The notes beneath the pieces are model-generated. The model ran no database searches and was not told the DNA's origin. It was given only the letters and a program-made list of their open reading frames with translations. From the NCBI RefSeq assembly GCF_003990445.1, contig NZ_REEZ01000010.1, positions 1 through 64,000 of the forward strand: DNA of 64,000 nucleotides. The letters run 5' to 3'. The position numbers were made by a program, and so were the translations under genes. This document shows positions 16,786 to 59,424 of this stretch, piece after piece (position 1 is the first letter of the stretch; each line of letters opens with the position of its first letter). This DNA is from Pararhodobacter zhoushanensis. Its GTDB lineage: Bacteria > Pseudomonadota > Alphaproteobacteria > Rhodobacterales > Rhodobacteraceae.

Positions 16786-17160
16786 ATGTCCGACGATATT
16801 CCCCCGGCCGGGACGTTCACCCCGGTGATCACCTTCTGGACACAGATCTGGCAGGCGCAGGTCGAGCAGTCGCTAAGGGTCTGGGCTGCCTGGGCGCAGA
16901 TGATGCCGCATGACAGCGCCCGCGCGCTGGCGCAGGAGGCCGAGCAGATGAAACCGGCGATCCCGCGCACAGTGCCGGTGAAACCCGCCGCCTCGGCTTC
17001 GGTGACCGCCATCACGTCTGCTGCACCGCGCAAGGCCCCGGCAAAAGCCGCCGCGAAACCGGCAGCGGCCAAACCGGCAACCGCCCCAGCCAAAAAGGCC
17101 CCGCGCACCCCGGTCCGCACCCGCAAAGCGGCGCAAGCGACGAAGCCCGCCCTCCACTGA
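16786..17160 (+). CDS. Small protein with phasin-like N-terminus and histone-H1-like Ala/Lys/Pro tail
   Basis: 124 residues, start ATG 16786 with a strong GAGGAGGG 5 bases upstream. Residues 1-55 form an amphipathic, Trp/Gln-rich helical region (FWTQIWQAQVEQSLRVWAAW) reminiscent of phasin or PhaM-type granule proteins. Residues 65-124 are low-complexity Ala/Lys/Pro with repeated AAKPA and AKK units like histone H1 or AlgP tails. This two-part plan occurs in proteins that link polyhydroxyalkanoate granules to the nucleoid, but no PHA gene is in the window, so that role is inference. Only 16 bases separate it from the convergent ABC permease gene. Confidence 0.65.
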   Translation: MSDDIPPAGTFTPVITFWTQIWQAQVEQSLRVWAAWAQMMPHDSARALAQEAEQMKPAIPRTVPVKPAASASVTAITSAAPRKAPAKAAAKPAAAKPATAPAKKAPRTPVRTRKAAQATKPALH

Positions 17161-47637: not shown

Positions 47638-48543
47638 ATGGACCGTCTGACCGAAATGGAAGCTTTTGCTACGGTGGTCGACCAAGGCGGGTTTACCGAC
47701 GCGGCGCGCAAGATGGGGATTTCCAAATCCGCCGTCTCAAAGCACGTCTCTTCGCTGGAAGCCCGGCTGGGCGCGCGCCTGCTGAACCGCACGACGCGCC
47801 GAGTCAGCCCCACCGAGATTGGCCTCGTATACTATGACCGCGCCCGCCGCGTGCTGAATGACGCAGGCGAAGCGGACAGCATTGTCACCGCCATGCAGTC
47901 GGCCCCCTCGGGCGTGCTGCGGATGTCGGTTGCCACCGATTTCGGCGTGGGTTTGCTGTCGCCGATCCTGGATGAATTTCTGTCGGAATATCCTGAAATC
48001 AGCGTCAACATGGTGCTCAAGAACCGCTATGTCGAGCTGATCTCGGAAGGGTTCGACATGTCGATCCGCGTCGGCGAGATGGAAGACAGCTCGCTGCGCG
48101 CCCGCAAGATTACGGAAACGGCGCAGCGCCTGATCGCCTCGCCGCGCTATATTCAGGAGCATGGTCGCCCGGCCAAGATCGACGATCTGAACGAGCATCG
48201 CCTGCTGCATTATTCGAATCAATCCAGCGCGAACGTCTGGCGCATCACCGCGGCCTCGGGTGAGGTGCGGCAGGTGCGCGGCAATGGCTGGCTGACGGTC
48301 AATGACGGCCACTCGCTGCTCAACGCGGCGGTCAAGGGGCTGGGCATCGCCTATCTGCCGAGCTTTCTGTACCATGACGCGATGGCGCAAGGGCTGGTTG
48401 AGGATGTGATCCCCGAGCTGCCGCAGACCACGCTGGGCATCTACGCGGTCTACCCGCCGGGGCGCTTCACGCAGCCCAAAGTTCGCGCGTTCATCGACTT
48501 TCTGGTCGACCAATTCGCTGAAAAAGGCCCTGAAATCTGGTGA
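47638..48543 (+). CDS. LysR family transcriptional regulator
   Basis: 301 residues: N-terminal winged HTH (FATVVDQGGFTDAARKMGIS, KSAVSKHVSSLEARLGARLL) and a LysR substrate-binding domain. Regulators with ISKSAVSKHV and an RVSPTEIG turn are common in the CrgA-like subgroup. It follows the reductase/AEC operon on the same strand with 159 bases between, so it may be a separate unit. A strong terminator follows. Confidence 0.9.
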   Translation: MDRLTEMEAFATVVDQGGFTDAARKMGISKSAVSKHVSSLEARLGARLLNRTTRRVSPTEIGLVYYDRARRVLNDAGEADSIVTAMQSAPSGVLRMSVATDFGVGLLSPILDEFLSEYPEISVNMVLKNRYVELISEGFDMSIRVGEMEDSSLRARKITETAQRLIASPRYIQEHGRPAKIDDLNEHRLLHYSNQSSANVWRITAASGEVRQVRGNGWLTVNDGHSLLNAAVKGLGIAYLPSFLYHDAMAQGLVEDVIPELPQTTLGIYAVYPPGRFTQPKVRAFIDFLVDQFAEKGPEIW

Positions 48544-48584
48544 CTTCCCTGCTCTGACCGTTCCCTCCGGTCAGATCCTTAGAC

Positions 48585-48615
48585 TGGCCGGCCCTTCGTG
48601 GCCGGCCATTTTTCT
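48585..48615. terminator. Bidirectional terminator between LysR gene and small protein gene 1
   Basis: TGGCCGGCC (48585-48593) and GGCCGGCCA (48600-48608) form a perfect 9-bp stem, loop CTTCGT, followed by TTTTTCTT. It ends the LysR transcript and, on the other strand, the convergent small-protein gene. A weaker TGACCG/CGGTCA stem lies at 48555-48573. Confidence 0.85.
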
Positions 48616-48624
48616 TATGCGCGG

Positions 48625-48777
48625 TTACTTCGAGCCGCCCTTGCTGCCGCCCGTCGGCAGGCCCGAGGTCACCCGGCTTTCTTCGCTGTTGCCGCCGCTG
48701 CCTGCAGGCTTTTTCGCGCCGCCCGGCAGCACACCGCTGGCCGATCCCTTGCCGCTGCTTGGTACACCTTTGGTCAT
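48625..48777 (-). CDS. Small Gly/Ser/Lys-rich protein 1
   Basis: 50 residues, starting MTKGVPSSGKGSASG and ending with TGGSKGGSK. ATG 48777 has AGGAGA 8 bases upstream; longer frames to 48858 would absorb the promoter. Low-complexity, basic, predicted disordered. It shares its C-terminal GGSK end, the DNA TGCGCGGTTACTT around the stop, and a TTGACG-N16-TATCGT promoter with small protein 2 at 57192. Function unknown; the composition resembles abundant stress- or nucleoid-associated small proteins, but that is only a guess. Confidence 0.6.
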   Translation of the reverse strand: MTKGVPSSGKGSASGVLPGGAKKPAGSGGNSEESRVTSGLPTGGSKGGSK

Positions 48778-48830
48778 AATGTCTCTCCTGAATGGCTCTG
48801 GCTGAACCCCGCGCGAGCGCGGGTTCCGAT

Positions 48831-48858
48831 ACGATACCGCAAGCGGTGTTTTCGTCAA
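48831..48858 (-). promoter_or_regulatory. Promoter of small protein gene 1
   Basis: Minus strand TTGACG (48858-48853), 16 bases, TATCGT (48836-48831). Identical boxes and spacing to the promoter at 57444-57471. Leader about 45-50 bases, with an imperfect GAACCC..GGGGTTC hairpin. Confidence 0.55.
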
Positions 48859-48861
48859 AAC

Positions 48862-49788
48862 CTAAGCGTTGCGCAGGATCGCGTCCCAGGCGGACTGAAG
48901 CTGGGCGGGGTCAAAACGATCCGCCAGACCGACCGCGACCGCCCGCCCCTGCCCCTTCGGCGGCGGGGCCGGGCGACGGTCGGACTGCACCCCCGCGCGG
49001 TGAAAGCTGCACCAGCTGCCATCGGTCAGCGGCATCAGACCCTTGAGGCGATACAGGCCGGGGATCGGCGCTTTGATCAGCGCATCCAGCGCCGCCGGGT
49101 CGGCAAGGCCGTCACCGCTATACACCCAGCCGCGATATTCGGCCCCGTGGTCGTGGTGATGACCATGGGCGTGCGGCTCATCCCGCCGCAGACGCAGCGC
49201 AAGCGGTTCGAGCAGCATCTCGGCCGGCACGCGGCCATAATCGGCGACCAGCCGCACGGCTTCGGGGGCGAGTTCCGCCAACGTGGCGCGCAGCTGTTTC
49301 AGCGCACCTTGCGGGGCGATGTCGGATTTGGTGACCAGCACCAGACCCGCCGTGGCGATTTGATTGCGCAGGGTTTCCCCCAGAAACGCGTCGGCCAGCG
49401 AGGCACCGAAATTCACCGCATCCACCACGACGACGACGCCCTGCAACGTCAGGTCCGGCTCGGCCAGCGCGACCTGCCCCACCTTGAACGGATCAGCCAC
49501 GCCCGAGGTCTCGATCACCAGATGCTCGGGCCGCGGATCAAGCCGCAGGATGCGGTCGATCGCGTCATAGAAGTCATCGCCAATGGTGCAGCACATGCAG
49601 CCGTTCGACAGTGCCAGCGTATCGCCCGAGCGGTTTTCGATGAGATCGGCATCCAGCGCGATCTCACCGAAATCATTGACCAGAACGCAGATCCGCAACC
49701 CGTGGCTGTCGGACAGCAAATGGTTGAGCACCGTGGTCTTGCCCGCGCCCAGATAGCCCGCGATCAGCGTGACGGGGATCGGGCTCAT
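48862..49788 (-). CDS. CobW/COG0523 family GTPase with His-rich loop, putative metallochaperone
   Basis: 308 residues. Walker A GYLGAGKT near 11-18, CMCC in SNGCMCCTIGDDFYDAI near 64, TKSD guanine-specificity motif, and a histidine-rich metal loop PHAHGHHHDHGAEY near 205-220 (seven His in twelve residues) absent from the COG0523 protein at 15528. Its start overlaps the amidohydrolase stop by 4 bases. The tight coupling suggests it inserts the metal (probably Zn) into that enzyme. Confidence 0.88.
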   Translation of the reverse strand: MSPIPVTLIAGYLGAGKTTVLNHLLSDSHGLRICVLVNDFGEIALDADLIENRSGDTLALSNGCMCCTIGDDFYDAIDRILRLDPRPEHLVIETSGVADPFKVGQVALAEPDLTLQGVVVVVDAVNFGASLADAFLGETLRNQIATAGLVLVTKSDIAPQGALKQLRATLAELAPEAVRLVADYGRVPAEMLLEPLALRLRRDEPHAHGHHHDHGAEYRGWVYSGDGLADPAALDALIKAPIPGLYRLKGLMPLTDGSWCSFHRAGVQSDRRPAPPPKGQGRAVAVGLADRFDPAQLQSAWDAILRNA

Positions 49789-51413
49789 TTCACGAACACG
49801 CGCCCGCCCTGCACGGTCCCCAGCACCGGAATATCGCGCAGCGCCTCGGGGGCCAGCGACAGCGGGTCATCGCCCAGCACGGCGAAATCCGCGGCTTTGC
49901 CGGGAGTGATCGAACCGACCTCGCGGTCCAGTTTCAACGTGCGCGCGGCGCCCAGCGTGATGGCATGCAGCGCCTCCATCACCGAAAGGCGCTGGTTCGC
50001 CCCCAGCACCCGGCCCTTGGGCGTGATGCGGTTGACGGCGCACCACGCGACATGCAGCGGGCCCAGCGGCGTGACCGGGCTGTCCGAGTGGATCGCCAGC
50101 GTCACGCCATTATCCAGCGCCGAGCGGCAGGCGTTCATGCGGGCAGCGCGGTCGGGACCGACGGTGAATTCGGCATGCGCATCGCCGTAATACCACAGGT
50201 GGTTGGCGAACAGGTTCACACAGACGCCCAGCCGGGCGGCACGGTAGAACTGATCCTCACCGGCCATCTGGCAATGCTGCAGCGTGTGGCGGCTGTCGCC
50301 GGTGGGGTGCTCCCACATCGCCTCTTCAAAGCAATCGAGGATGAAATCGCTGGCCTCGTCACCATTGGTGTGAACCTGCATGTTCAGGCCCGAGGCATGC
50401 AGCGTCTTCACCAGTTCCTTCAGCCGTGCGGGTTCGAGGTTCCACAGCCCGTTGGGCTGCCCGCCGATATAGCCCGGCCATTTCACCCGCGCGGTGAAGC
50501 CCTGGATCGAGCCATCGGTCATCACCTTGCAGATGCCCATGCGCAGCATGTCGGTCGATTTCGCGCGCAGCTCCAGCGCGCGGGCGGCGGCGGCTTTCGG
50601 CTCCAACCCGATCACGCCCAGCGCCGGGACCAGCCGCAGCGGATAATCCTTGCGCCCGGTCACGTCGAGCAGGGTGGCCACATCGTCATCGGCCAGATCC
50701 GCCATCAGGTCGGTCGCGGTGGTCACACCGGTCTGCACGGCGGCCTTGCCGTATTGCACAATGGCATGCTCACCCTTGGAGATATCGCGGATCGCCATGT
50801 TCAGGCGGCGCATCACCGGGAACATCGCGCCCATTTCCTGCAGCTCGCCCATCAGCGAGCCATCGGGCAGGCGCACGACACCCTCGGCGTTGGTGTCAGG
50901 GCCATAGCCGGCCATCTCAAGCGCCTTGGAGTTGACCGTCATCAGGTGGAAACTCTGGTGCATCACCGCAATCGGCACCTCGGCCGAGGCTTGGTCCAGA
51001 TGATGCCGGTTCAGCCGGTCGCCGGCAAAGAACAGCGGATCAAAGCCCCAGCAGACCAGCGGCTGACCAGCGGGCAGCTTGGCGATGGCCCCCTTCATCC
51101 GGTCGATCATGTCATCGACCGTATGCACACCGGGCCACAGATTGCCGTCAGGATCGGTCCGATCCACGTTGCCGCAATAGAGATAGGTCCACAGCGCGCC
51201 GGTCATCATGTGGCTGTGCGCCTCGACGAAACCGGGCAGCAGAACCTGATCGCGGAACCGCTCATCCAGCCGCGCACCGCCCCAGACCTCGGCAATCTCA
51301 GGACCACCGACGGCCAGAATGCGCCCGTCGCGCACGGCAACATGGGTGGCGTAGGGCTGTGTCGGCTCCATGGTGATGATGCGGCGGGCGGCGTAGAGGA
51401 TTGTTTCGGCCAT
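49785..51413 (-). CDS. Metal-dependent amidohydrolase, YtcJ-like
   Basis: 542-residue cytoplasmic hydrolase of the amidohydrolase_3 (YtcJ) group. Metal ligands: HxH in GFVEAHSHMMTG, lysine/aspartate region CKVMTDGSIQGFT, His in MQVHTNGDEA, TLQHCQMAGE, and the terminal Asp in AIHSDSPVTPLGP. These enzymes hydrolyse N-substituted amides, formamides or cyclic ureides; exact substrate unknown. It forms a two-gene unit with the metallochaperone and is divergent (269 bases) from a dipeptide-type importer that could deliver its substrate. Confidence 0.9.
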   Translation of the reverse strand: MAETILYAARRIITMEPTQPYATHVAVRDGRILAVGGPEIAEVWGGARLDERFRDQVLLPGFVEAHSHMMTGALWTYLYCGNVDRTDPDGNLWPGVHTVDDMIDRMKGAIAKLPAGQPLVCWGFDPLFFAGDRLNRHHLDQASAEVPIAVMHQSFHLMTVNSKALEMAGYGPDTNAEGVVRLPDGSLMGELQEMGAMFPVMRRLNMAIRDISKGEHAIVQYGKAAVQTGVTTATDLMADLADDDVATLLDVTGRKDYPLRLVPALGVIGLEPKAAAARALELRAKSTDMLRMGICKVMTDGSIQGFTARVKWPGYIGGQPNGLWNLEPARLKELVKTLHASGLNMQVHTNGDEASDFILDCFEEAMWEHPTGDSRHTLQHCQMAGEDQFYRAARLGVCVNLFANHLWYYGDAHAEFTVGPDRAARMNACRSALDNGVTLAIHSDSPVTPLGPLHVAWCAVNRITPKGRVLGANQRLSVMEALHAITLGAARTLKLDREVGSITPGKAADFAVLGDDPLSLAPEALRDIPVLGTVQGGRVFVK

Positions 51414-51588
51414 GATGTTCCCGGTTCTGCGCCCGGATCAGGCCGGGCTTTTTTGACGATGCGGTGTTTTTGAGCAGCGCAGCAAGCGGGTTGCCGTTAC
51501 TGCTGACACCCTGCGCCCAGAATGCCGCAGCATGGCAGCCACCCTAGCGCCAGATTTCGGAAAGCATAGATCCAGAGGGACTTTAGTC

Positions 51589-51616
51589 TTGATCGGTTTG
51601 AGCACGCTTTCATACT
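51589..51616 (+). promoter_or_regulatory. Possible promoter of the Dpp-type importer operon
   Basis: TTGATC (51589-51594), 16 bases, CATACT (51611-51616); 67 bases before the ATG. Moderate match only. Confidence 0.35.
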
Positions 51617-51682
51617 CGCGTCACAACGACCGGAAAACCGGCAGGTCGAAAAGATACACCTCTTTCAACTGGGAGACATGAC

Positions 51683-53263
51683 ATGCGTCTGACTCGGAGA
51701 ACCTTCGTCGGCACCAGCGCCTCGCTGATGGCGCTTGGCCTTGGGCCGGTTTCGGCACAAGAGCGGCGGGGCGGCCAACTGGTGATCGTCACCGGCGAAA
51801 ACCCGCGCCACCTGAACCCTGCCGTGCAATCGGGCGTGGCCACCGCCATTCCCGGAACGCAGATTTTCGCCTCGCCATTGCGCGTGGACGAGAACTGGGA
51901 TCTGCACCCCTATCTGGCCGAAAGCTGGGCGCTGGCCGAGGATGGCCTGAGCCTGACGCTGAACCTTGTGTCGAACGCCAAGTTCCACGATGGCATGCCC
52001 GTCACCTCCGAGGACGTCGCCTTTTCGATCATGACGATCAAGGCGAACCACCCGTTCCAGACCATGTTCGGCCCGGTCGAGTCGGTCGAGACCCCCGACG
52101 CCACCACCGCTATCATCCGCCTGTCGCAGCCGCACCCGGCCTTGCTGCTGGCGCTGACCGGCGCGCTCTGCCCGATCCTGCCCAAGCACGTCTATGATGA
52201 CGGCCAAGAAATGCCGACGCACCCGGCCAACAACGCACCCATCGGCTCGGGCCCGTTCAAGCTGGCCGAGTATCGCCCCGGCGAACAGATCACCCTGCAG
52301 CGCTTTGACGAGTTCTTCATCGAAGGCCGCCCCTATCTGGACGAGATCATCATCCGCATCGTGCGCGATGCCTCGTCGGTCACGCTGTCGCTGGAATCCG
52401 GTGAGGCTGACGCCGGGATGATCACCGACTCGACCGCGATCTCGCGCCTGTCGGCGACGGATGGTCTGATGGTCACCCCGCGCGGGTTTGAGGGGATCGG
52501 CCCGATTCAGTGGCTGGCCTTCAACACCCGCGTCGCGCCACTGGACGACATGCGCGTGCGTCAGGCGATTGCCTATGCGATGGACCGCGACTTTATCCTG
52601 AACGCGCTGATGCGTGGCGTGGCCTCCAGCCAGAAAGGGCCGATCATCGAATCGAGCCCGTTCTTCAACCCCGACATGCCCAGCTACAATCTTGATCTGG
52701 ACCGCGCCAACGCGCTGCTGGATGAAGCCGGGCATCCGCGCGGCGCCGATGGCACGCGCTTTACCCTGACGATGGAGACGATCCCGGGCCGCGACTCGGC
52801 CACCGGCAATATCCCCGAATACCTGCGCTCGCAGCTGCGCGAAGTGGGGATTGAGGTCGAACTGCGCGCCTCGCCCGACTTCCCGACATGGGCGGGCCGT
52901 CTGGCCTCGGGCGATTTCATGATGTCGATGGATATCGTGTTCAACTGGGGCGATCCGGTGATCGGGGTGCACCGCACCTATCTGAGCACCAACATCCGCC
53001 CGGTGATCTGGTCCAACACCCAAGGCTATGCCAACCCCGAAGTCGACGATCTGCTGGAACGCGCCGGGCGCGAGACCAACTTCGAAGAGCGCAAAGCCCT
53101 TTATGGTCAGTTTCAGGATATCGTCGGTGAGGAACTGCCGGTCTACTGGATCAACGCGCTGCCCTATCACAACGTGTTCGACGACCGCATCGGCAACCCG
53201 CCCCTGACGATCTGGGGTATGATGCAGGCCATGGATCAGGTCTACTGGACCGAAGACCGTTGA
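51683..53263 (+). CDS. Dipeptide/opine-type ABC transporter substrate-binding protein
   Basis: 526-residue periplasmic protein of solute-binding family 5. Tat signal TRRTFVG at residues 4-10, hydrophobic core, cleavage near VSA-QE (about 25). Mature part has the SBP_bac_5 pattern: HLNPAVQSGVATAIPGTQIF and LAESWALAEDGLSLTLNLVS. Tat export suggests folding or cofactor binding before secretion, common in Rhodobacterales SBPs. First gene of a five-gene importer; a 10-bp perfect hairpin separates it from the permease. Confidence 0.92.
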   Translation: MRLTRRTFVGTSASLMALGLGPVSAQERRGGQLVIVTGENPRHLNPAVQSGVATAIPGTQIFASPLRVDENWDLHPYLAESWALAEDGLSLTLNLVSNAKFHDGMPVTSEDVAFSIMTIKANHPFQTMFGPVESVETPDATTAIIRLSQPHPALLLALTGALCPILPKHVYDDGQEMPTHPANNAPIGSGPFKLAEYRPGEQITLQRFDEFFIEGRPYLDEIIIRIVRDASSVTLSLESGEADAGMITDSTAISRLSATDGLMVTPRGFEGIGPIQWLAFNTRVAPLDDMRVRQAIAYAMDRDFILNALMRGVASSQKGPIIESSPFFNPDMPSYNLDLDRANALLDEAGHPRGADGTRFTLTMETIPGRDSATGNIPEYLRSQLREVGIEVELRASPDFPTWAGRLASGDFMMSMDIVFNWGDPVIGVHRTYLSTNIRPVIWSNTQGYANPEVDDLLERAGRETNFEERKALYGQFQDIVGEELPVYWINALPYHNVFDDRIGNPPLTIWGMMQAMDQVYWTEDR

Positions 53264-53277
53264 TCTGAGACACTTTT

Positions 53278-53302
53278 CGCGGCCCGCCCCGCGCGGGCCG
53301 CG
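53278..53302 (+). terminator. Intercistronic hairpin after the Dpp-type binding-protein gene
   Basis: CGCGGCCCGC (53278-53287) and GCGGGCCGCG (53293-53302) form a perfect 10-bp stem with a 5-base loop, 14 bases after the stop. Followed by TTCTGTTCTG, so partial termination or mRNA protection is likely. Confidence 0.7.
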
Positions 53303-53343
53303 TTCTGTTCTGATGCCCCCTTCCAAGGATTGAAAACCAACCC

Positions 53344-54324
53344 ATGGCAATGATGCGCTATATTCTTCAGCGGCTGCTCTACGGGCTGATCCTGATGCTT
53401 GGGGTGGTGGTCCTGAACTTCTTTCTGATCCACGCTGCCCCCGGTGACGCCGCCGAGGTGATCGCCGGCGAAATGGGCGGCACCACCGAAGAGATGATGG
53501 CCCAGATCCGCGCGCATTACGGGCTGGATCAGTCGATCATGGTGCAGCTGTGGATCTATCTCAAGCAGATTGCCATGGGGGATCTGGGCACCTCGTACCA
53601 CTTCAACCGTCCGGTTACCGAGCTGATCCTGCAACGCCTTGGCCCGACGGTCATGCTGGCGCTGAGCGCGCAACTGATCGCGATGCTGCTGGGCGTGGTG
53701 CTGGGCGTGCTGTCGTCGCGCCGTCCGCAGGGTATCCTGTCGGGCTTTGTGTCGGTGTTCTCGACCGTGGGCTATGCCGCGCCGGTGTTCTGGACGGGCC
53801 TGATGCTGGTCATCCTGTTCGCCGTCTGGATCCCGCTGTTCCCCGTTGAGGGCTACGTCAGCGCGCGGTTCCGGGGCACGGGGCTGGCCTATGCGCTCAA
53901 CGTCGCGTGGCATCTGGTACTGCCTGCGACCACGCTGGGCATCCTGTTTCTGGCGCAATACGCCCGGCTGTCGCGCACCGCGATGATCGAGGTGCTGGGC
54001 GCTGACTATATCCGCACCGCCCGCGCCAAGGGGCTGGGCGAGGGCAAGGTCACTTTCAACCACGCGCTGCGAAACGCGGTGCTGCCGATCCTGACGATCG
54101 CCGGTCTGCAATTCGGCAACCTGATCTCGGGCGCGCTGCTGGTGGAAACGGTGTTCAACTGGCCCGGCATGGGGCGGCTGGCCTTCGATTCCGTGCTCAG
54201 GCGCGATTATCCGACGCTGCTGGGCGTGCTGTTCTTTGCCTCGGCCTTTGTCGTGCTGGCGAACCTGCTCACCGATCTGAGCTATCGCTTCGCCGATCCC
54301 CGCATTCGCACCGGAGGGCGCTGA
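53344..54324 (+). CDS. dppB: Dipeptide-type ABC transporter permease, DppB
   Basis: 326 residues, about six helices, starting MAMMRYILQRLLYGLILMLG. The cytoplasmic coupling loop is YIRTARAKGLGEGKVTFNHA and the C-terminus RFADPRIRTGGR. Ends 1 base before the next permease gene. Annotated dppB by family; peptide specificity not proven. Confidence 0.93.
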   Translation: MAMMRYILQRLLYGLILMLGVVVLNFFLIHAAPGDAAEVIAGEMGGTTEEMMAQIRAHYGLDQSIMVQLWIYLKQIAMGDLGTSYHFNRPVTELILQRLGPTVMLALSAQLIAMLLGVVLGVLSSRRPQGILSGFVSVFSTVGYAAPVFWTGLMLVILFAVWIPLFPVEGYVSARFRGTGLAYALNVAWHLVLPATTLGILFLAQYARLSRTAMIEVLGADYIRTARAKGLGEGKVTFNHALRNAVLPILTIAGLQFGNLISGALLVETVFNWPGMGRLAFDSVLRRDYPTLLGVLFFASAFVVLANLLTDLSYRFADPRIRTGGR

Positions 54325-54325
54325 G

Positions 54326-55180
54326 ATGACCAAAGCCGTCAGCCCCTTGGGCGAAGCCTGGGGCCAGTTCCTGCGCAACAAACCCGCCGTCGCCGGATTG
54401 GCGCTGCTCATCGTCATCGTGGGCTTCGTGCTCTACGGCCACTTCCTGTTCAACGCCGATCCCTACCGCATCGTCTGGGGCCCGCTGACCGCCCCCGGAG
54501 AACGCGAGGGGATACCGCTGGGCACCGATTTTCTGGGCCGCGACATCTTTGTGCTGCTGCTCAAAGGCGGCGGGCCGACGATGGCGGTGGGTCTGTCGGC
54601 GGCGCTGCTGACGGTGGTGATCGGCATCGCCATGGGGGCGCTGGCCGGGTATTTCGGCGGCTGGGTCGATGACCTGCTGATGCGCCTGACGGAATTCTTT
54701 CAGGTGCTGCCCGCGCTGTTGTTCGCCATGGTGCTGGTGACGCTGTTCGCGCCCTCGCTGGTGACGATCTCTTTCGCCATCGGCATCGTCAGCTGGCCCG
54801 GCACCGCCCGCCTGACCCGCGCCGAGTTCCTGCGCATCCGCGAGCTGGAATACGTCACCGCCGCGCGCTCGATCGGCGCAGGCAACAGCCGCATCATCTG
54901 GAAGGTGATCCTGCCCAACGCCCTGCCGCCGCTGATCGTGTCCGCCGCGCTGACCGTGGGCGTGGCGATCCTGTTCGAGGCCGGGCTGTCCTTTCTGGGC
55001 CTTGGCGATCCCAACACGATCAGCTGGGGCCAGATGATCGGCCAGAACCGCAACTTCCTGCTCGAAGCCTGGTGGCCGGTGGCGATCCCCGGTCTGGCAA
55101 TCTTTTTCACCGTGTTTGCCGTGTCGCTGGTTGGCGACGGGCTGAACGATGCCTTCAACCCGAAACTGAGGTCGCGATGA
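54326..55180 (+). CDS. dppC: Dipeptide-type ABC transporter permease, DppC
   Basis: 284 residues with an N-terminal extension and about five to six helices; PLGTDFLGRDIFVLLLKGG is a DppC hallmark and YVTAARSIGAGNSRIIWKVI the coupling loop. Overlaps dppD by 4 bases. Confidence 0.93.
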   Translation: MTKAVSPLGEAWGQFLRNKPAVAGLALLIVIVGFVLYGHFLFNADPYRIVWGPLTAPGEREGIPLGTDFLGRDIFVLLLKGGGPTMAVGLSAALLTVVIGIAMGALAGYFGGWVDDLLMRLTEFFQVLPALLFAMVLVTLFAPSLVTISFAIGIVSWPGTARLTRAEFLRIRELEYVTAARSIGAGNSRIIWKVILPNALPPLIVSAALTVGVAILFEAGLSFLGLGDPNTISWGQMIGQNRNFLLEAWWPVAIPGLAIFFTVFAVSLVGDGLNDAFNPKLRSR

Positions 55181-56163
55181 GCCCGTTGATGAGCCTGTCC
55201 GACCTGCGGGTCGAATTCGACACCCGCCACGGACGCGTCACCGCGCTGTCGGGGATCAGTCTGGACGTGATGCCGGGCGAAACGCTGGGCATCGTGGGCG
55301 AGTCTGGCTGCGGCAAGTCGATCACCGCGCTGGCGATGATGGGGCTGATCCCCAACCCGCCGGGCCATGTGACCGGCGGCGTGATCGAGTTCGACGGTGA
55401 AGACATCACCCGCGCCAGCAACCGCCGCCTGCGCCAGTTGCGCGGGCGCGATATTGCGATGATCTTTCAGGAACCGATGACCTCGCTCAACCCGGTGTTC
55501 ACCGTCGGCGATCAGATCGCCGAGGCGATCCTGTTGCATCAGGACATGAGCCGGGCCGAGGCCGACCGGCAGGTGATCGAGCTGCTGGAAACCGTGGGCA
55601 TCCCGGAACCCGAGGCACGGGCGAAAAGCTATCCGCACCAGTTGTCCGGCGGGATGCGGCAGCGGGTGATGATCGCCATGGCGATCAGCTGCCGCCCCAA
55701 GCTGTTGATCGCCGATGAGCCGACAACGGCGCTGGACGTGACCGTGCAGGCGCAGATCTTCGATCTGATGCGCGACATTCAGGCCAAGTTCGGCGTGGCC
55801 ATCGTGTTGATCACGCATGACATGGGCGCGATTGCCGAGATGACCGACCGCGTTGCCGTGATGTACGCCGGGCGGGTGATCGAACAGGGCACCTCGGACC
55901 AGATCCTCGACACCCCCTTGCACCCTTACACGCGCGGCCTGATCGGCTGCATTCCCGTGCTGGGCCGTGCTGCTGCCAGCACCGACCGGTTGCCACCGCT
56001 GGCCGAGATCCCCGGCGTGGTCCCGCCGCTGCACCTGCTCGGCGACGGCTGCGCCTTTGCCGAGCGCTGCGCGCTGGCGGATGACCATTGCCGCGCCGTG
56101 CGTCCGCCGCTCGACGACAAGGGCCACCCCGTCGCCTGCCACCACGCGGGGGAAATCGCATGA
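55177..56163 (+). CDS. dppD: Dipeptide-type ABC transporter ATPase, DppD
   Basis: 328-residue ATPase. ATG 55177 overlaps the preceding stop (ATGA). Walker A GESGCGKS near 42, signature [14 protein letters not shown] near 155, and the oligopeptide-transporter C-terminal cysteine region [16 protein letters not shown] that binds an Fe-S cluster in related importers. Next gene overlaps by 4 bases. Confidence 0.94.
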
Positions 56164-57137
56164 CCACGCCACTGCTCTCTGCCCGCAAGCTGGAAGTCAG
56201 CTTCGAGATTGGCCGCAAGGGGTTCTTCGGCAAACCGCGCCTGCTGCGCGCGGTGCGCGGCGTCGATTTCGACCTGATGCCGGGGCGCACGCTGGGGCTG
56301 GTGGGCGAATCCGGCTCGGGCAAAACCACCACCGCGATGGCGGCGATCCGGCTGGCCCCGTCAACCGGCGGCTCGGTCAGTTTTGAGGGCACCGATCTGA
56401 TGACCCTGCCTGCGGAAGCGATGCGCGCCCAGCGCAAGCATCTGCAGGTGATCTTCCAGGACCCCTATTCCAGCCTGAACCCGCGCGAACGCGTTGGTGC
56501 CATCGTGCGCGAACCGCTGGATCTGATGAATGTCGGTGACCCGGCAGGCAGGGACGACCGGGTGCGCGAGCTGTTCGGGCTGGTCGGCCTGCGCCCCGAC
56601 CAGATGTCGCTGTTCCCGCACCAGTTTTCCGGCGGGCAGCGGCAGCGGATTTCCATCGCGCGCGCCTTGGCAACGAACCCCCGGCTGATCGTCTGCGATG
56701 AGCCGGTCAGCGCGCTGGATGTGGCGATTCAGGCGCAGATCCTGAACCTGCTGCGCCGGTTGCAGGATGAATTCGGCCTTAGCTATCTGTTCATCAGTCA
56801 CGATCTGGGCGTCGTGCAGTTCATCTGCGACGACATCGCGGTGATGTATCTGGGCGAGATTGTCGAGTACGCCGACCGCCCCACGCTGTTCTCCAAACCG
56901 CGCCACCCGTATACGGCGGTGTTGCTGGAAGCCGCGCCTTCGCTTCTGCGGCGCAAATCGGCGGGCTACAGGCGGGCGGGGATGGTCAAGGGCGACCTGC
57001 CCTCGCCGATGAACCTGCCCAAAGGCTGCGCCTTTGCTTCGCGCTGCCCCAAGGCACAAGAGCGCTGCCGGGCCGAAGCGCCCGTGCTGCGCGACGTCGG
57101 CGACAGCCGCGTCGCCTGCCACTTCCCGCTGGACTGA
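56160..57137 (+). CDS. dppF: Dipeptide-type ABC transporter ATPase, DppF
   Basis: 325-residue ATPase, start ATG 56160. Walker A GESGSGKTT near 52, signature FSGGQRQRISIARALA, and the C-terminal motif GCAFASRCPKAQERCRAEAP with the conserved cysteines. Last gene of the importer; followed by a 10-bp hairpin. Confidence 0.94.
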   Translation: MTTPLLSARKLEVSFEIGRKGFFGKPRLLRAVRGVDFDLMPGRTLGLVGESGSGKTTTAMAAIRLAPSTGGSVSFEGTDLMTLPAEAMRAQRKHLQVIFQDPYSSLNPRERVGAIVREPLDLMNVGDPAGRDDRVRELFGLVGLRPDQMSLFPHQFSGGQRQRISIARALATNPRLIVCDEPVSALDVAIQAQILNLLRRLQDEFGLSYLFISHDLGVVQFICDDIAVMYLGEIVEYADRPTLFSKPRHPYTAVLLEAAPSLLRRKSAGYRRAGMVKGDLPSPMNLPKGCAFASRCPKAQERCRAEAPVLRDVGDSRVACHFPLD

Positions 57138-57140
57138 AAA

Positions 57141-57163
57141 CGCCCGGCACTGGGTGCCGGGCG
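57141..57163. terminator. Hairpin between dppF and small protein gene 2
   Basis: CGCCCGGCAC (57141-57150) and GTGCCGGGCG (57154-57163): perfect 10-bp stem, loop TGG, 3 bases after the dppF stop. No U tract; convergent small-protein gene ends on the other side. Confidence 0.65.
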
Positions 57164-57191
57164 CAGGTGGTCGGGGCGTAGATCTGCGCGG

Positions 57192-57350
57192 TTACTTGCT
57201 GCCGCCTTTGCTGGATGACGGCGCGGGACCGCTGCCCTTGCCAGCAGCGCCGCCCTTGGCCGTGGTGCCTTTGGACGACGACGGTGCCGGACCGCTGCCT
57301 TTGCCCGGCGCGGCACCCTTGCCAGCGCCGCCTTTGGAATTGTCAGCCAT
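57192..57350 (-). CDS. Small Gly/Ser/Lys/Pro-rich protein 2
   Basis: 52 residues, MADNSKGGAGKGAAPGKG at the start and SSSKGGSK at the end. It contains an internal repeat GKGSGPAPSSSKG (twice). ATG 57350 follows GGAGGAGGG. Basic, disordered, related by composition, C-terminal motif and stop-flanking DNA to small protein 1 at 48625, and driven by an identical TTGACG-N16-TATCGT promoter. Together they bracket the amidohydrolase/Dpp region. Function unknown. Confidence 0.6.
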   Translation of the reverse strand: MADNSKGGAGKGAAPGKGSGPAPSSSKGTTAKGGAAGKGSGPAPSSSKGGSK

Positions 57351-57443
57351 GTTCCCTCCTCCTGATCGCGAAGCCCGAATCCTGCCGGGGAAATCCCGCG
57401 CAGGGACGAGTCGCAAAAGAACCGCCGCGGCTCTTCGAGATCA

Positions 57444-57471
57444 ACGATACACCTGAAAATTAAGGCGTCAA
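57444..57471 (-). promoter_or_regulatory. Promoter of small protein gene 2
   Basis: Minus strand TTGACG (57471-57466), 16 bases, TATCGT (57449-57444). Same boxes and spacing as at 48831-48858. Leader about 85-90 bases. Confidence 0.55.
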
Positions 57472-57534: not shown

Positions 57535-59424
57535 TTACAGGGCCAGATCGAACGATACCCGCAGCGACATCTGCCGGTCATCCGCGTTGCCCGCGTATTC
57601 GATCCCGGCGCGCAGCGCGCCCGGCCCGGTCTGCGCGACATAGGAAAGACCGATGCCTGCGTGGCTGTCGTCGAACAGATCCGGCGCGGCAAAACTGGTG
57701 CTGCCGCCGCTCAGCCCGAACTGCATCACGCCCTGATCACCCCCGCGCAGCGCGGCAAAGACATAAGGGCGCAGCACGCCGCCGCTGACGGCAACCGGCA
57801 TGCCCAGATCGCCGCGCAGGCCGTAAGCCGTTGCGTCATGCGCGGCGATAGTCCCACCGCCCAGACCCGAGAGCGTGTAGCCCACGGTGCGATGGTGCAC
57901 GACATCCGCCTGCAACGCGACATCGGCGAAGGGCGCGTCGGGCTGGCCGCCAAAGCCACGCGCAAAGCGCAGGCTGGCGCCGATCACCGTGCCGTCCATC
58001 TGCGCATCGCCCAAGCGATAGGCGGGGCTGGTCAGGTCGGTGTCGGTCCTGCCCAGATAGCCCAGCGCCGACAGCGTGCCTGCATCGCCAAGATCGCTGA
58101 GATGCGAGAGGCCGACGAACAGCGCCGTCTGGCGCAAGCGGTGCTCGCCGTCGTCCAGCGTCGCGCGGCCCTGCGTGACGGCCAGAAAGCCCGAGACGGC
58201 GCCAAAGCTCTGCCCGGCGACCAGACCGCCGCTGCGCTCGGACAGGCCCTGGTAGCTGCCGCTGGCCGCGATGTCAGAGCCGCCACCGAACACGCCCAGC
58301 CATGCGCCGCCCTGCCCTTGACGGTCATGCACCACACCCGCGACCCCAAAGGCCGCGCTGCGTGCCAGACGATCACCCGCCGCCAGCGGCATCGGGTCGA
58401 TCAGTGCCAGCGCGGTTCCGACCAGCAGACCGGGGCCGTCAAAACTGACCACCTCGGGCAGCGACCCAAAGCGCAGCATCCCGGCCTGAACGCCGTGCAC
58501 CATCACCGTGTCGGTGCCGTCGCCCATCTCGATCAGCCCGTCGATGATCGAGCCGCGCAGCACCTCCAGCGTGTCGTCGCCCATGCCGAGGTTCAGCGCC
58601 ACACCGCCGCGGCCCCGGATCGTCCCGCTGTTCACCACGCGCTGCGCGCCAGTGTCGGCACCGTCGGTGTTGATGCCGATGGTGCCCTCGATGGTGCCCG
58701 AATTCTGCACCAGACTGTCCAGCGTGCTGGGGTCAAAGTCGATGCCGTCCTCGGCACCGTCGCTGATGATCAGCCCGTCATTGATCACCGTGCCGCTGTC
58801 CAGATCCACCCCGTCCTGATCGCCGGTCGACCGGATGGTGCCCGCGTTGTAGATATACGCATCCGTGGCCGCGTTGACCCCGTCATCGCCCGCCTCGATC
58901 AGCCCGTAGTTATAGAGCTGCGCGCGGTCGGTGTTGATGTTCACGCCCTCATCCGCCGCCCGGATGATCCCGGTTTCGGTGTTCATGACATAGGCGTTGT
59001 CTTCCAGCTGCACGCCATCATCGGCGCCGATGATCGTGCCCGCGTTGACCAGACGGCCATCGTTGTCGATGTTCACCCCGTCGCCATCGCCGGTGATGGT
59101 GCCATAGTTGGTGACGCTGACGCCATTGTCACCCTGCACACCATGATCACCCTGACCGGTGATCACGCCGTGGTTGATAAAGGTCACATCGTCGTCGAAC
59201 TCGAACCCCTGATCGGTGCCGGTGATCTCGGCCCCTTCCAGAACGGTGATCTGCGCGTCATCCAGCCCGTCGTCCAGAATGCCGGTACCAATGCCGGCGC
59301 AGGTGACCACGTCGCCATCATTGGGCGCAGCAGGGGTGCAGGCGTCTTGCGCGTTTGCGATGCCAGGCAGCGCAAGCGCGGCCATCAGGGCAAGGGTCGA
59401 GGCGGAAAGGCGAAGATCGGGCAT
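57535..59424 (-). CDS. Autotransporter-type outer-membrane protein with Asp-rich beta-helix repeats
   Basis: 629 residues. Signal peptide 1-25 (cleavage ANA-QD). Residues about 60-290 are tandem repeats of about 20-26 residues with the pattern NxGTIxGxDDGV (e.g. NYGTITGDGDGVNIDNDGR), rich in Asp/Asn and likely a right-handed beta-helix that binds calcium. A short linker is followed by an autotransporter beta-barrel of about 280 residues (starts near GLLVGTALALIDPMPLAAGD). The last residue is Leu rather than the usual Phe/Trp, which is odd for BamA recognition. Stands alone; adhesion or surface display is likely. Confidence 0.86.
   Translation of the reverse strand: MPDLRLSASTLALMAALALPGIANAQDACTPAAPNDGDVVTCAGIGTGILDDGLDDAQITVLEGAEITGTDQGFEFDDDVTFINHGVITGQGDHGVQGDNGVSVTNYGTITGDGDGVNIDNDGRLVNAGTIIGADDGVQLEDNAYVMNTETGIIRAADEGVNINTDRAQLYNYGLIEAGDDGVNAATDAYIYNAGTIRSTGDQDGVDLDSGTVINDGLIISDGAEDGIDFDPSTLDSLVQNSGTIEGTIGINTDGADTGAQRVVNSGTIRGRGGVALNLGMGDDTLEVLRGSIIDGLIEMGDGTDTVMVHGVQAGMLRFGSLPEVVSFDGPGLLVGTALALIDPMPLAAGDRLARSAAFGVAGVVHDRQGQGGAWLGVFGGGSDIAASGSYQGLSERSGGLVAGQSFGAVSGFLAVTQGRATLDDGEHRLRQTALFVGLSHLSDLGDAGTLSALGYLGRTDTDLTSPAYRLGDAQMDGTVIGASLRFARGFGGQPDAPFADVALQADVVHHRTVGYTLSGLGGGTIAAHDATAYGLRGDLGMPVAVSGGVLRPYVFAALRGGDQGVMQFGLSGGSTSFAAPDLFDDSHAGIGLSYVAQTGPGALRAGIEYAGNADDRQMSLRVSFDLAL

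Follow-up and report, generated by a model that had tools for sequence, protein, structure and literature searches.

Two small genes for putative disordered polycations behind sigma-70-like promoters in Pararhodobacter zhoushanensis

Background

Two short open reading frames (ORFs) lie on the reverse strand of Pararhodobacter zhoushanensis contig NZ_REEZ01000010.1, within its first 64,000 nucleotides (this whole stretch is called the window; its genome is G000). Gene 1 (48625..48777, -) and gene 2 (57192..57350, -) both encode a protein ending in GGSK. In an initial annotation they were described as two related, co-regulated 50-residue proteins, possibly stress or nucleoid related, under a sigma factor reading a TATCGT -10 element. 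Are these genuine genes, do they belong together, and what might their products do?

Our leading explanation, held tentatively and at somewhat less than an even chance, is that genes 1 and 2 are lineage-restricted, stand-alone units driven by sigma-70, making disordered polycations that bind anionic partners. On the computed side this rests on coding constraint among close relatives, on promoters and ribosome sites that are conserved, on the two genes being neighbours in two relatives and on the lack of a predicted fold. Most likely they do not form a defined stress regulon.

Results

Both ORFs were recovered at the positions given above, each with an AGGAG-type ribosome site and an ATG start. 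Gene 1 indeed encodes 50 aa (net charge +5), whereas gene 2 encodes 52 (net +7). The products had been called disordered and basic, and this is borne out: isoelectric points (pI) are 10.3 for gene 1 and 10.5 for gene 2, glycine makes up 28% and 29% of the residues, the grand average of hydropathy (GRAVY) is -0.66 and -0.84, and aromatic residues and cysteine are absent from both. The gene 2 protein holds an internal repeat, KGSGPAPSSSKG. AlphaFold predicts no secondary structure for either protein (mean predicted local distance difference test score 57 for gene 1, from an alignment of 6 rows, and 52 for gene 2, from 4 rows), and with a predicted template modelling score of 0.12 no fold is predicted. 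Pfam and NCBIfam profiles returned no family at E <= 1 for either protein, and the literature search gave nothing on these proteins by title or abstract start among the matches listed. We refer to orthologues of gene 1 as gene A and to those of gene 2 as gene B. All ten A- or B-type proteins tested have a pI of 9.9-10.5, a net charge of +3 to +7 and no aromatic residue or Cys; the positive charge is thus maintained throughout despite sequence drift.

Proteins of this composition might be hydrophilins or late embryogenesis abundant (LEA)-like protectants, shielding enzymes or membranes under osmotic or drying stress. The high glycine content, the lack of aromatics and the lack of a predicted fold speak for this reading. 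The hydrophilin class is defined, in the accessible part of PMC7448490, by more than 6% Gly and a hydrophilicity index above 1.0. Glycine lies far above its threshold, but the index, following from the GRAVY values, is 0.66 and 0.84 and stays below 1; 3 of 10 family rows pass, and no stress-type promoter is seen. We therefore consider a protectant role possible, though unlikely.

Orthologues were sought in a set that included 19 Pararhodobacter genomes. Of 41 genomes searched by BLAST, five gave a match to gene 1 and two a match to gene 2. Because low complexity hides further copies, we used as anchor the LysR-type regulator gene that lies tail-to-tail with gene 1 (47638..48543, +) and is present in 19 of 19 genus genomes, and searched within 1.5 kb of it for small Gly/Lys/Ser/Ala/Pro/Thr-rich ORFs with a ribosome site. 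Gene A is present in seven of the 19 genus genomes (G000, G018, G016, G006, G009, G010 and G017) and gene B in four (G000, G018, G010 and G017). Homologues of gene 1 occur in Pararhodobacter sp. CCB-MM2, Rhodobacter sp. NTK016B and P. marinus, all of the same genus group as the window. An ORF beside LysR in G013 is A-like by place and composition only (1260 of 3000 shuffles as good locally, 303 globally). An ORF in G012 with a GTG start and without the Gly/Lys pattern was set aside, and so was a longer start for gene A of G017.

Among close relatives the frames appear to be held as protein. Between gene 1 and its orthologues in G016, G006 and G009, synonymous divergence (dS) amounts to 0.45-0.79 and non-synonymous divergence (dN) to 0.14-0.19; gene B of G010 and G017 differ by five synonymous changes and one non-synonymous change, and indels come in multiples of three. 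The check for broken frames proposed in the initial annotation found none in G018, G016, G006 and G009. At larger distance, 4 of 3000 shuffles match the global score of gene 1 against gene A of G010, which supports orthology. For gene 2 against gene B of G010 and G017 the global comparison is similarly favourable (3 and 1 of 3000), while the local one is not clear (214 and 198 of 3000); the genes are alike in promoter, leader and start context. Judged from sequence, genes 1 and 2 look like real protein-coding genes.

Outside the genus little was found. With gene 1 as query, 394 genomes of the family (392 of them outside the genus; in some genomes 17 candidates from a first look were scored) yielded no convincing relative beyond Pararhodobacter: the four marginal matches (E 0.003-0.01) all lack a small Gly/Lys ORF with a ribosome site. 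The gene 2 query covered 80 of 427 genomes (G000-G024 and G041-G095; 61 outside the genus) and gave the four known copies plus 20 marginal matches (E 0.003-0.1), none of which has such an ORF at the match; locus L131 has a different Lys/Ala-rich ORF away from it. Plasmids held no match to the gene 1 orthologue of G006 (the sole query tried), and no copy of gene 2 lies past the autotransporter-like gene of G016. As the queries are low-complexity, diverged relatives could be missed. So far as found, at this limited search sensitivity, the two genes appear restricted to some Pararhodobacter species.

Both genes are preceded by TTGACG-N16-TATCGT, at 48831..48858 (-) for gene 1 and at 57444..57471 (-) for gene 2, as had been annotated. 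In a sigma-70-like scan of 601 and 551 bases each box was the sole site in its stretch (shuffle mean 0.0). A genome-wide motif search of G000 gave four sites with a spacer of 15-18 (none for the reversed control), and across the 19 genus genomes 13 sites with a spacer of 16 were counted against one for the control. Six of these 13 lie upstream of genes 1 and 2 or their orthologues, four inside long same-strand ORFs and three elsewhere. Another site of this kind, L003 (G000:C12:77791-77818), stands just upstream of an ORF starting MWQRLLSLYLGRL, which we take to resemble cyclopropane fatty acid synthase.

A sigma-70-type promoter has a TTG-type -35 element, a spacer of 16-18 bases and a TAnnnT -10 element. 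By sequence pattern alone, all 11 orthologous promoters are of this type: in each the spacer is 16 bases long and the -10 ends in T, and the -35 contains TTGAC in nine and TTGCC in two (G006 and G009). Gene 2 and its gene B orthologues share the same hexamers at the same spacing in all four genomes, even though the spacer sequence of one pair is very different from that of the other. Gene A promoters retain TTTTGAC or TTTTGCC (TTTTGMC), the 16-base spacer and TAnnnT, with TATCGT in G000 and G018 only and TACGCT, TAGCGT, TAGCCT or TAGGCT in the others. Given this drift of the gene 1 -10 between genomes, no special sigma factor is indicated and a dedicated one reading TATCGT was rejected; the pattern fits reading of both promoters by the housekeeping sigma-70. 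In several Alphaproteobacteria a T at -7 is missing from more than 60% of sigma-70 promoters, and CarD has been proposed to help such promoters (PMC8407463, as far as its available part goes). The gene A and gene B promoters, all of which keep this T, may be strong and independent of CarD.

That the two genes make up a family with a stress or nucleoid role, co-regulated by a sigma factor that reads TATCGT, is improbable as a whole, though a part of this view stands. In G000 and G018 both genes have the same boxes at the same spacing, and so has gene B in G010 and G017. The two genes belong to one locus (they are adjacent in G010 and G017), and the gene 2 boxes are conserved. Yet gene 1 orthologues beyond G000 and G018 keep the -35 T-run and the spacing without TATCGT. 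Moreover, the box followed by a ribosome site 60-90 bases downstream occurs in only 2 of the 394 family genomes (a pattern that would miss leaders as short as that of gene 1): one is the window's own, and the other was dismissed as chance, since it lies inside an opposite-strand ORF and is followed by no Gly/Lys-rich ORF.

Genes 1 and 2 are apart in the window because a block of a CobW GTPase gene (-), an amidohydrolase gene (-) and DppABCDF (+), at 48862..57137, intervenes. The order in G000 and G018 is LysR, gene 1, CobW, amidohydrolase, Dpp, gene 2, autotransporter-like gene and thioesterase; in G010 and G017 it is LysR, A, B and multicopper oxidase, the block being absent between A and B. 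G016 has LysR, A and multicopper oxidase, and in G006 and G009 the stretch that precedes gene A aligns with the oxidase end of G016. The order is LysR, A-like ORF and thioesterase in G013, and in G005 LysR followed by Dpp until the contig end, without a small gene. Past LysR there is in these species (G000, G005, G010, G013, G016 and G017) a variable spot, occupied by the Dpp block, multicopper oxidase or thioesterase. The block may have been inserted in the window lineage or lost elsewhere. Its G+C content (0.651 against 0.654 and 0.653 on the flanks) gives no sign of insertion, and either course would agree with the Dpp genes of G005, which adjoin LysR without a small gene.

In a single-gene LysR tree the seven gene A genomes form one group (support 94/98, just below the tool's strong mark). 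Genes A and B are present on both sides of the first split of this group (support 84/88), so its ancestor probably had both.

Whether the two genes also share descent is another matter. The initial annotation called the proteins related, but their likeness does not go beyond composition: of 3000 shuffles, 771 reach at least the same local score and 245 the same global score, and hhalign gives a probability of 9% over 14 columns (E 0.0035). Where A and B are adjacent, in G010 and G017, they exceed shuffles in likeness by a small margin (local 56 and 144, global 122 and 85 of 3000), too small for a claim. Protein likeness thus does not show common descent. A 13-bp match flanking both stops had also been pointed out, with copies at 48618-48630 and 57186-57198; the match is real, though the second copy lies at 57185-57197. 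It is unlikely to arise by chance, since only 45 of 233,586 pairs of ORFs of at least 200 aa have identical 7-mers past the stop (1 of 8,515 pairs with TAA). Nonetheless, it is changed already in G018 and absent in the remaining orthologues, and a functional or recombination repeat was rejected for this lack of conservation.

The gene 2 leader (57351..57443, -) has predicted stem-loops before its ribosome site. Between G000 and G018 only 1 of 125 columns differs in gene 2 leader plus promoter, compared with differences of 5-9% in the genes for CobW, the amidohydrolase, Dpp and the autotransporter-like protein and of 3% in LysR. Each of the 11 leaders is predicted to begin with stem-loops, whose stability is less telling. 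For the first 42 nt of the gene 2 leader 270 of 500 shuffles are as low in energy, and gene B leaders do not beat shuffles; the gene 1 leader does so modestly (33 of 500), and 4 of 7 gene A leaders fall in the lowest 8%. Special stability is thus not borne out for gene 2 and is modest for gene 1. Downstream of gene 2, a terminator-like hairpin followed by TTTT can be read at 57137..57163 (-). Its T-run falls short of the threshold set in the terminator scan, and the scan called no terminator there; a similar hairpin follows gene B in G017. On the gene 1 strand, the hairpin in the 3' flank lacks a following T-run.

On the opposite strand the LysR gene is followed by a hairpin with a GUUCCCUCC loop and an intrinsic terminator (48546..48613, +), a candidate small RNA (sRNA) derived from the 3' untranslated region (3'UTR). 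It resembles SorX, though below the gathering score of Rfam (31.2 bits with RF02784, gathering score 46.6); suhB/mmgR (RF00519) gives 23.3 bits against 41. A full-scoring SorX (67.4 bits) is located elsewhere in the genome, at G000:C54, and since matches to the SorX model of similar score occur elsewhere in these genomes, the label is weak. By eye, a TCCCTC-loop (UCCCUC in RNA) hairpin plus terminator, with differing stems, lies past LysR in 12 of the 19 genus genomes (G000, G018, G016, G010, G017, G006, G009, G005, G014, G003, G011 and G007), and G002 and G001 show a C/T-rich motif without a clear hairpin.

As gene 1 lacks a T-run after a hairpin on its own strand, its mRNA could run antisense through this element and sponge or block a SorX-like sRNA. 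Gene 1 is tail-to-tail with LysR in 5 of 5 genomes found by BLAST irrespective of LysR, and in three more found by looking beside it; 7 of these 8 genomes have the hairpin element. Its stop lies 11 bases from the element, and the terminator scan matches the LysR strand only. Against this, the gene 1 frame is constrained as protein among close relatives, and the LysR element is also present in five genomes with no small gene seen beside LysR. A gene 1 mRNA that partly acts as RNA is in our opinion quite improbable. Very improbable is a dual-function locus, in which the gene 1 polycation and an mRNA 3' end antisense to the SorX-like sRNA would couple protein expression with sRNA silencing.

Finally, that the ORFs are spurious or decaying, held open by GC-rich low-complexity sequence, is hardly credible: composition, patchy distribution and high divergence between subgroups would allow it, but it is opposed by the synonymous bias among close relatives, indels in threes, conserved promoters and starts, and a composition-plus-ribosome-site filter that found no match in a 400-kb sample of this genome (the sample contains the genome's two other TTGACG...TATCGT sites, by which its -10 counts are biased and were not used as a rate).

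Two further features of the window may be mentioned. The same filter, applied to the window, retains gene 1, gene 2 and a third, Ala/Lys/Pro-rich ORF at 16948-17160 (+). At 57535-59424 (-) lies a gene for a 629-aa protein, autotransporter-like by appearance only and without a Pfam match at E <= 0.01, which is found in 3 of the 19 genus genomes.

Discussion

Taken as a working model, lineage-restricted polycation genes would operate as follows. Each small gene would be its own transcription unit under housekeeping sigma-70 RNA polymerase, and its product a 4.5-kDa intrinsically disordered polycation rich in Gly, Ser, Lys, Ala and Pro. Both proteins might be produced at a high level and, being flexible and opposite in charge, bind such anionic partners as RNA, ribosomes, DNA or surface polymer; for this, length, charge and flexibility would count more than sequence.

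Several observations weigh against this model. High expression is read from the promoter boxes alone. Leader and promoter of gene 1 show no extra conservation (5 of 83 columns differ between G000 and G018), and for 7 of the 11 leaders the stem-loops have no clear advantage in stability over shuffles. When gene 1 is compared with the diverged gene A of G010 and G017, dN is close to dS or above it, so that orthology there rests mostly on position and promoter; the G017 comparison is not beyond shuffles (2056 of 3000 local, 217 global). No A-type gene lies within 1.5 kb of LysR in 11 of the 19 genus genomes, some of which are incomplete, and the genes must therefore be dispensable or placed elsewhere.

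The locus could be of value in two respects. It offers lineage-restricted protein genes that hold on to their promoter, start and charge as the sequence changes, and whose birth and loss could be dated on a tree. In addition, the tail-to-tail order with a recurring hairpin in the 3'UTR of a regulator gene would provide a test case for coding mRNAs acting on 3'UTR-derived sRNAs.

Compared with known systems, likenesses are partial. The window proteins share small size and KGG motifs with the KGG-repeat stress proteins (YciG type, PF10685), but have no Pfam match at E <= 1. Like hydrophilins and LEA-like proteins they are small and Gly-rich with no predicted fold; they differ in being strongly basic, with an index below 1 and no stress promoter seen. 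In Rhodobacter sphaeroides, an OmpR-type gene carries SorX in its 3'UTR, from which it is cleaved (PMC6238624, in the part available). The LysR 3'UTR element is likewise a hairpin with a pyrimidine-rich loop and a terminator following a regulator gene; in contrast, it stays below the gathering score and the genome's full-scoring SorX sits elsewhere. Pos19 of Rhodobacter sphaeroides has, according to the accessible text of PMC5036791, an RpoE promoter, TGATCC(N15)GCGTA, and its regulatory action does not depend on the ORF being translated; its authors did not find it outside one species. As far as that text describes it, Pos19 resembles genes 1 and 2 in being a small, stand-alone coding RNA with a ribosome site, a short ORF and a narrow distribution, whereas genes 1 and 2 differ from it in their sigma-70-like promoters and in a frame that appears to be under protein constraint.

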